Shown here piece after piece: positions 31,292 through 32,602 of a stretch of 62,345 nt of DNA. Below the pieces are notes generated by a model. The model searched no databases. It saw nothing but the letters and a program-made list of their open reading frames with translations, and was not told the DNA's origin. The DNA is from Acidaminococcus hominis. Its GTDB lineage: Bacteria > Bacillota > Negativicutes > Acidaminococcales > Acidaminococcaceae. The stretch covers positions 760,054 to 822,398 of the forward strand of contig NZ_OLMM01000005.1 of the NCBI RefSeq assembly GCF_900291475.1, read 5' to 3'. Position 1 is the first letter of the stretch; each line of letters begins with the position of its first letter. The position numbers and the translations under genes are program-made.

Positions 31292-31837
31292 ATGACCGCA
31301 TGGATTACCACCTATACAGGCCGTCATGTGGACCCGGTGCAGCCGGATCCGGAGCAGCTGGTGCCGGAAGATATCGCCCACGCCCTGTCCCTGATCTGCC
31401 GGGGCAACGGCCATGTGAAAACGTTTTATTCCGTAGGGCAGCACTGTATTGCCTGTGCCCGGGAAGCCCTGGCCCGGGGCTATAGCCGCCGGGTGGCTTT
31501 GGGAGCACTGCTCCACGACGCCAGTGAATGTTACCTGTCCGACGTACCCAGTCCCTTTAAGCGGACGCTGAAGGGCTACCGGGAGCAGGAGGATGCCCTG
31601 TTGAACCTGATTTTCACCAAGTTCTTGGGCAGCCCGCTAACAGAGGAAGAAAGCCGGCAGGTATTTGATATTGACCGGGGACTGCTAGGCAGCGACCTGC
31701 GGCAGCTCTTAAACGAGGAGGAGGTCTCTTCGGCCAGCCCCCTCCTTTTGCCGGTGGACTATACCGTTCTGCCCTTTGCCCAGGTGGAGCAGACCTATTT
31801 GGAATTGTTTCATAAACTGCAAAATCCTTTTGCCTAA
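31292..31837 (+). CDS. HD-domain phosphohydrolase
   Basis: HD-superfamily metal-dependent hydrolase, 181 residues. Metal ligands visible: H in YSVGQHCIA near residue 52, the HD pair in ALLHDASECYLSD near 75, and a later D. Related proteins hydrolyse nucleotides; the substrate is unknown. The ATG at 31292 follows GGGAGGAGG. An in-frame extension to 31235 would run through the lysS terminator and is not credible. It lies directly after that terminator and probably depends on readthrough or an unseen promoter. Confidence 0.85.
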   Translation: MTAWITTYTGRHVDPVQPDPEQLVPEDIAHALSLICRGNGHVKTFYSVGQHCIACAREALARGYSRRVALGALLHDASECYLSDVPSPFKRTLKGYREQEDALLNLIFTKFLGSPLTEEESRQVFDIDRGLLGSDLRQLLNEEEVSSASPLLLPVDYTVLPFAQVEQTYLELFHKLQNPFA

Positions 31838-31840
31838 GTA

Positions 31841-31873
31841 AAACTCCCTGTCTGTGAAGGCAGGGAGTTTTTT
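31841..31873 (+). terminator. Terminator of the HD gene
   Basis: A 10-bp perfect stem (31841-31850 with 31861-31870) followed by TTT; it begins four bases after the stop. Confidence 0.85.
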
Positions 31874-31927
31874 GAAATTTTGCCGTATGTTTAGTAGAAT
31901 TTGCCGTCTTTCAGGAGTTGCAAAAAG

Positions 31928-31956
31928 TTCCTATAAAAAATGGGAAATTATATAAT
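31928..31956 (+). promoter_or_regulatory. Probable promoter of the structured RNA / TerB-like gene
   Basis: TATAAT (31951-31956) with a partial -35 TTCCTA (31928-31933), 17-base spacer. Transcription would begin near 31963, about 185 bases before the TerB-like start codon. Confidence 0.55.
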
Positions 31957-31962
31957 GAAATA

Positions 31963-32132
31963 ACGTGAAAATATTGAATAATCTTTCTTAGCGTAGTAGG
32001 ATAGTTCCTGTATGAGGGGCACGGAGCCAGGGGAGAGAGGCTTCCCTGACGGCAGTGGTACAGCTTTTCCAGGGTATAATTGATCCTGTGGGTAATAGGC
32101 TGAAGCTGGCGTGCAATCGGATTATTCGCTAA
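31963..32132 (+). ncRNA. Candidate structured leader RNA or 6S-like small RNA
   Basis: The stretch between a promoter and the TerB-like gene contains no ORF but folds by eye into a long irregular rod. Pairings: 31976-31983 with 32120-32127 (8 bp), 31987-31992 with 32099-32105 (one bulged G), 31998-32002 with 32083-32087, 32007-32010 with 32070-32073, 32014-32019 with 32064-32069 (three G-T pairs), and an apical hairpin 32028-32035 with 32041-32048. A competing pairing joins TTAGCG (31988-31993) to CGCTAA (32127-32132), which touches the ribosome site AGGAGG at 32133. It could be a switch-type leader or a 6S-like rod that runs into the gene. I recognise no known riboswitch consensus. Confidence 0.42.
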
Positions 32133-32146
32133 AGGAGGATTTTCAA

Positions 32147-32554
32147 ATGTATTTAAATTTGCTGAAAGACCAGGAAAAAAAGATGTTTTTGGATTTGTGC
32201 AAGACCATTGGCAATTCCGATGGGGATTATTCGGACAGTGAGAAAACGATCATTAAGGCCTATTGTCAGGAAATGAACATTCCTTATGATGATGAGCCTT
32301 GTCAGCAGGATGGGGAAGCCCTGATGAAAGAACTGGCGGCCCAGTGCAGCCCCCGGGAAAAGAAAATCATCGTGCTGGAGCTGATTGGTCTTGCTTTGGC
32401 CGATGAACATTTTACTGATGATGAACGGAAATTGATTGCAACGGCTACCCAGATTTTTGGGGTGGGCGAGGAATTTGCCAAGGGCTGTGAAAAGGCCACC
32501 CAGGAATACATTGAAGCCCAGAAGCTGTTTGGGCAGCTGGTGTTTGGCGCATAA
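32147..32554 (+). CDS. TerB-like helical protein
   Basis: A 135-residue all-helical cytoplasmic protein resembling the TerB / tellurite-resistance fold, with paired acidic loops SDGDYSDSEK near residue 24 and DEHFTDDERK near 88, each followed by a helix, as in TerB-type metal-binding repeats. Function in the family is unclear. The ATG at 32147 follows AGGAGG by eight bases. Upstream is a long structured RNA; downstream is a bidirectional terminator. Monocistronic. Confidence 0.65.
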   Translation: MYLNLLKDQEKKMFLDLCKTIGNSDGDYSDSEKTIIKAYCQEMNIPYDDEPCQQDGEALMKELAAQCSPREKKIIVLELIGLALADEHFTDDERKLIATATQIFGVGEEFAKGCEKATQEYIEAQKLFGQLVFGA

Positions 32555-32570
32555 GAAAATATTGCTGTAA

Positions 32571-32602
32571 AAAAATCCCTGTCCTTTTGGGCAGGGATTT
32601 TT
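32571..32602. terminator. Bidirectional terminator, TerB-like gene / nhaC-like gene
   Basis: An 11-bp perfect stem (32571-32581 with 32592-32602), A-run on one side and T-run on the other, between convergent stops at 32554 and 32622. Confidence 0.88.

Follow-up and report, generated by a model that had tools for sequence, protein, structure and literature searches.

The 184-nt region preceding a TerB-like gene is predicted to adopt two mutually exclusive folds that share one 5' arm, in such a way that one of them (OFF) buries the Shine-Dalgarno (SD) sequence of the gene and the other (ON) leaves it free. We tentatively read this region as a lineage-specific, SD-sequestering 5' leader that would tune translation of the TerB gene by means of a co-transcriptional open fold, with a probability of roughly 0.4. 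Folding models make an ON/OFF pair at the TerB ribosome site plausible. As no relative with this fold was found, the leader is an orphan, and its function as a switch is unproven.

Results

The TerB-like gene and its putative leader

The window, this being the whole stretch of 62,345 nucleotides that was analysed, belongs to contig C7, in a bacterial genome of 2.6 Mb. The features of the locus are collected in Table 1, with positions given as those of the window.

Table 1. Features in and around the putative leader of the TerB-like gene.
Feature	Position	Strand	Basis
Terminator-like inverted repeat and T-run 3' of the upstream gene, AAAACTCCCTG...CAGGGAGTTTTTT	31840-31874	+	by eye
TATAAT -10 box	31951-31956	+	sequence reading; -35 weak; not listed by the promoter scan
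Putative 5' leader of the TerB-like gene, 184 nt	31963-32146	+	sequence and folding
5' switching arm; predicted anti-SD in the OFF fold	31974-31993	+	pair probability 1.0, 31982-31987 with 32134-32139
Predicted weak hairpin	32004-32027	+	pair probability ~0.34-0.48
Predicted strong 8-bp hairpin, CAGGGGAG/CUUCCCUG	32028-32048	+	pair probability 0.97-1.0
Predicted long irregular arm	32049-32112	+	pair probability 0.64-1.0
Predicted 3' strand of the closing (ON) helix	32119-32128	+	prefix folds; minimum pair probability 0.83 (31975-32128 folded alone)
Predicted 3' strand of the OFF helix, SD inside	32127-32146	+	MFE, prefix folds, 5'-end series
SD, AAGGAGG	32132-32138	+	sequence reading
TerB-like protein, 135 aa	32147-32554	+	PF05099, E 6.7e-11
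Intrinsic terminator-like site 3' of the TerB-like gene	32571-32602	+	terminator scan

The start of the TerB-like gene is supported by an aligned ATG in 12 of 13 other loci, and its reading frame stays open upstream of this codon as far as a GTG at 32111. Terminator-like sites lie at either side of the gene. The upstream one is absent from the terminator scan, in which the loop limit was 8, and permissive Rfam matches to terminator-bearing families land on it, all of them below their gathering scores. Upstream of the leader there is a 659-codon ORF, which we take to be lysyl-tRNA synthetase from reading its sequence, and also the 181-aa protein P0002, for which a Pfam search at E 0.001 gave no match.

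A previous inspection of this DNA, made from the letters alone (the sequence-only reading), had described about 185 bases without an ORF between a TATAAT promoter and the TerB ATG. The stretch, the box and the start codon are all present, but the absence of ORFs holds for long ones only, as the plus strand contains ORFs of 23 codons (32012-32083) and 25 codons (32055-32132) and the minus strand others of 24 and 42 codons. With only those two short ORFs on the plus strand, neither of them preceded by an SD as judged by eye, a decayed or small ORF was rejected as the identity of the leader. Regarding the promoter, the box has no good -35 element and was omitted by the promoter scan, which listed instead a 10-of-12 site at 31872-31900. 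Directly 5' of the -10 box we also noticed by eye an imperfect inverted repeat (TTCC-N10-GGGAA, 31928-31946), a possible operator.

Two predicted folds compete for one arm

The best fold of the leader (-62.6 kcal/mol) is closed by a long helix, 31974-31993/32127-32146, that buries the SD. In this OFF fold all six bases of GGAGGA (32134-32139) are paired, with a mean unpaired probability of ~0.002. Eight 5' ends ranging from 31877 to 31980 were tried, and with each of them the pair 31984-32137 of this helix kept a probability of 0.996-0.998; when the 5' end was placed at 31985, that probability dropped to 0 and the SD unpaired probability rose from ~0.002 to 0.29. Forced opening of the SD was calculated to cost 7.1-9.2 kcal/mol, varying with the 3' end.

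The ON fold derives from a closing helix drawn in the sequence-only reading. When this helix is extended (31976-31984/32119-32127), it shares its 5' arm with the OFF helix and the SD is left free; in prefix folds, the part of the switching arm at 31975-31984 also supplies the ON helix with its 5' strand. This helix is part of the MFE structure of prefixes ending at 32127, 32130, 32133 and 32136, and once the prefix extends to 32139 or beyond it is displaced by the OFF helix. In silico, the SD-closed state is favoured over the SD-open state by about 5-7 kcal/mol. Prefix and constrained folds show in silico one feature of riboswitches, namely two mutually exclusive folds that expose or hide an expression platform.

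Concerning the pairings proposed from the letters, eight of nine are fully complementary when G-U is allowed (five of the six helices of a rod, both helices of a branched alternative, and TTAGCG/CGCTAA); in the ninth, 31987-31992/32099-32105, the arms differ in length and two positions are mismatched. Folding supported the proposal that pairings at the ribosome site exclude one another, as one 5' arm serves both the closing and the SD-burying helix. The roles, by contrast, were partly reversed: TTAGCG/CGCTAA had been presented as a competitor, and the pairing is indeed predicted, being the inner six pairs of the SD-burying helix, but it is the winner. The six-helix rod fell as a fold of this RNA, since constraining the RNA to it gave -34.6 kcal/mol, a loss of 28 kcal/mol relative to the best fold, and apart from the hairpin 32028-32048 none of its pairs has a probability above 0.0.

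Known RNA classes

The covariance search against Rfam that the sequence-only reading had proposed was run, and the whole window yielded only tRNAs at gathering score. No family reached this score on the leader. In a permissive search of 31820-32180, SAM-III and nine other matches appeared, all far below their gathering scores; the one with the lowest E value (ncr952, E 0.0024, 23.7 bits against a gathering score of 100) lies on the upstream terminator-like hairpin.

SAM-III (RF01767) was the best riboswitch match on the leader region, and was rejected because it scored 16.4 bits (E 0.58) where the gathering score is 45, with a weak alignment over 32069-32149. In SAM-III, also called the SMK box, the SD is sequestered by an upstream anti-SD, as predicted for the TerB leader. 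Ligand binding is what shuts the SD in SAM-III, and this ligand-driven closure, together with the sub-threshold score, sets the two apart.

A resemblance to 6S RNA had also been suggested. The leader is similar to 6S RNA (RF00013) in length but is not a rod, and a rod with a central bubble, as in 6S RNA, was not found as a stable fold given the energies above. No RF00013 match (threshold 46.4 bits) was detected in 31820-32180 with E values up to 10, and the genome has its own 6S RNA on another contig (G000:C9:240041-240223, a full match of 82.6 bits), so that this identity was rejected. Elsewhere in the same genome, SpF41_sRNA, described from Streptococcus, has an Rfam match at L054:11766-11869 (61.2 bits, gathering score 52).

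Comparison with shuffled sequences and with real leaders

The MFE of the leader corresponds to z = -2.89, and equally stable folds were found in 2 of 200 shuffles. In a second set of 600 shuffles, in which the SD end (3' end) was kept fixed, the values of the leader were reached by two for MFE, by none for SD closure, by two for SD-opening cost and by five for the SD duplex. A joint test was then defined as an SD-opening cost as high as that of the leader plus an SD-pairing arm that, before synthesis of the SD, has 8 or more of its bases in other pairs; it was passed by 5 of 1000 shuffles, a figure to be read in the light of the statistic having been devised after the fold was seen. The opening cost alone was reached by 25 of 1000, and a looser joint test (cost of at least 4, arm of at least 8) was passed by 53 of 1000. 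The leader moderately exceeds shuffles.

For comparison with real leaders, a simple greedy rule was applied to 400 kb of the same contig and called 373 ORFs; 145 of them are preceded by a gap of 150 bases or more, and 102 of these 145 have a recognisable SD. Counting the TerB leader itself in each case, z values as low were found in 19 of the 145 leaders (30 shuffles each) and MFE values as low in 37, and among the 102 leaders with an SD the opening cost was as high in 20, the joint test was passed by 4 and the looser test by 12. The TerB leader is in the upper tail only and is unremarkable within its genome.

One of the three other leaders passing the joint test belongs to the gene at C7:912856; it contains a ZTP riboswitch recognised by Rfam (RF01750, L052:12729-12806) and serves as a single positive control. 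In the folding test its SD is buried and the arm has an alternative partner before the SD is made, as in the TerB leader; the ZTP leader matches its family at 58.2 bits (gathering score 39), whereas the TerB leader matches none at gathering score. The remaining two leaders may contain coding DNA. Three T-box leaders are found by Rfam in the surrounding 400 kb (L052:14126-14357, L053:16612-16804 and L043:15342-15558), and no gene adjoining them was among those passing the joint test. T-boxes often work at the level of transcription, so they need not pass a test based on the SD.

Search for relatives of the leader

The genome collection contains one genome per species. With blastn, the region 31880-32160 gave in 41 genomes (own included) only itself and one short match, in genome G016, with 80% identity over query positions 40-82 and inside an ORF of another protein. 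Positions 31957-32146 gave in 380 genomes of the class, besides themselves, only fragments of ~17-33 bases in 42 genomes, scattered over the query (best E after self 0.003; two candidates per genome scored). No match to the leader was found in phages and plasmids, nor was the exact 21-base hairpin pattern found in viral contigs.

The OFF fold and the ON fold were also each turned into a single-sequence covariance model (R1 and R2, respectively). R1 found in 39 genomes of the family only the leader itself and one match at E 0.5, in its own genome and overlapping an ORF, with none in the 38 other genomes; in 380 genomes of the class it found itself and two matches at E 0.3-0.4, both overlapping ORFs on both strands. 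R2 gave itself and one match at E 4.4 in nine genomes of the genus, and itself and four weak matches in the 380 genomes of the class. The best of these four (G096) has an E value of 0.0018 for one genome, equivalent to ~0.7 over 380, and lies inside a 313-codon ORF; two others (G266 and G268) are the same places as the R1 matches, and another (G035) lies ~100 bases downstream of a Moco riboswitch. The runs over the class had stricter filters, with at most six (R1) or eight (R2) candidates per genome scored among the matches listed.

As a control for the method and for RNA length, a model made in the same way from the 6S RNA of the genome (183 nt) matched 36 of 39 genomes of the family (own included) at E 1e-10 or better, or 35 of 38 without its own, although 6S is an unusually well kept RNA and hence a favourable control. 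The misses were three sampled genomes of one genus, g15. Had an RNA the size of the leader been conserved throughout the family, it would probably have been detected.

Homologues of the TerB protein were found in 2 of 9 genomes of the genus and in 21 of 380 genomes of the class, own included in each, the matches in the class lying at 23 places. The only other homologue in the genus is 31% identical, and the DNA upstream of it is unlike the leader by eye. None was found in viral contigs, and genome contigs gave two distant relatives (L006 and L007). The upstream DNA of 16 loci, three of them the window's own, was compared by eye, covering 12 of the 23 places in the class (own included), and no leader like that of TerB was seen at the 13 other loci.

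In both distant relatives (L006:3001-6049 and L007:3001-6051), the TerB homologue is followed by what appears by eye to be the same pair of proteins, of ~440 and ~345 aa, which suggests a TerB module. The TerB-like gene of the window differs from these in that no such pair follows it; instead, the terminator-like site and an ORF on the opposite strand come next.

Altogether, blastn and covariance models in genomes up to class level did not reveal a conserved, covarying aptamer in relatives, this being, within what could be tested, an outcome that the sequence-only reading had itself named as speaking against its proposal. A limited search of the literature on TerB with riboswitches, and on riboswitches of Negativicutes, did not find a terB leader among the papers listed. 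The ldh2 motif of Negativicutes is treated in PMC8632094, the main text of which contains no occurrence of "terb".

Discussion

Both folds, their common arm and the greater stability of the closed state form the in silico basis for reading the region as an SD-sequestering leader. Three points are inferred: the TATAAT box drives transcription of the leader, the two folds form inside the cell, and translation is tuned by them. In the resting state the arm 31974-31993 would pair with 32127-32146 and hide AAGGAGG, whereas during transcription the same arm would pair first with 32119-32128, with the SD still free. Translation would then be allowed by ribosomes that load early, or by a factor stabilising the closing helix. 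This proposal is favoured by the robustness of the OFF pair to the 5' end, by the succession of ON and OFF in growing prefixes, by its rarity among shuffles, by the fact that the joint test also picks the leader of a ZTP riboswitch, and by the terminator-like sites flanking the gene. It is disfavoured by the ranks of the leader among real leaders, by the failure of any T-box neighbour to pass, by the lack of a homologue and by the post hoc nature of the statistic.

About equal in likelihood is that the folding is unselected, a long 5' UTR by chance folding well and pairing its SD, with ribosomes coping and without any regulation. The ordinary position of the TerB leader among real leaders in z, SD cost and the looser test fits this explanation, as does its absence from any relative searched. 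Furthermore, the two sites that compete near the SD, GGATTATTC and GGATTTTC, resemble by eye an imperfect direct repeat, so that one arm would gain two alternative partners without selection for switching. What chance folding accommodates less well is the comparison with shuffles, so few of which pass the joint test and none of which reach the SD closure. Bolder, and improbable in our opinion, is a translational ON riboswitch that would be restricted to the species and have no relation to the classes known; a ligand bound at its multi-hairpin junction would stabilise 31975-31984/32119-32128 and free the terB SD. A multi-helix junction whose closing helix competes with the anti-SD pairing would suit such a device, and the ZTP leader found in this contig meets the joint threshold too; against it, riboswitch aptamers are normally kept across genera and here neither a homologue nor covariation nor an Rfam family at gathering score was found, and two of the junction hairpins are weak (minimum pair probability 0.34-0.60).

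Two further explanations are given little credit. An RNA thermometer, in which heat would open the SD helix, agrees with the SD being shut at 37 °C in the predicted fold but was rejected as very improbable, because up to 60 °C the SD is predicted to be unpaired with a probability of less than 0.03. A 6S-like RNA, which draws on the rod of the sequence-only reading and nothing else, is the least credible of all and can be practically discarded with the energy of that rod, the lack of a 6S match at the leader and the presence of the genome's 6S RNA on C9.

Since 4 to 12 of 102 leaders of this contig look switch-like, depending on the test, stems that compete at a ribosome site carry little evidential weight when homologues are lacking. 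If real, the SD-sequestering leader would represent a lineage-specific sequestration of the ribosome site by a long-range helix, combined with a co-transcriptional escape fold, controlling a gene for a TerB-domain protein.
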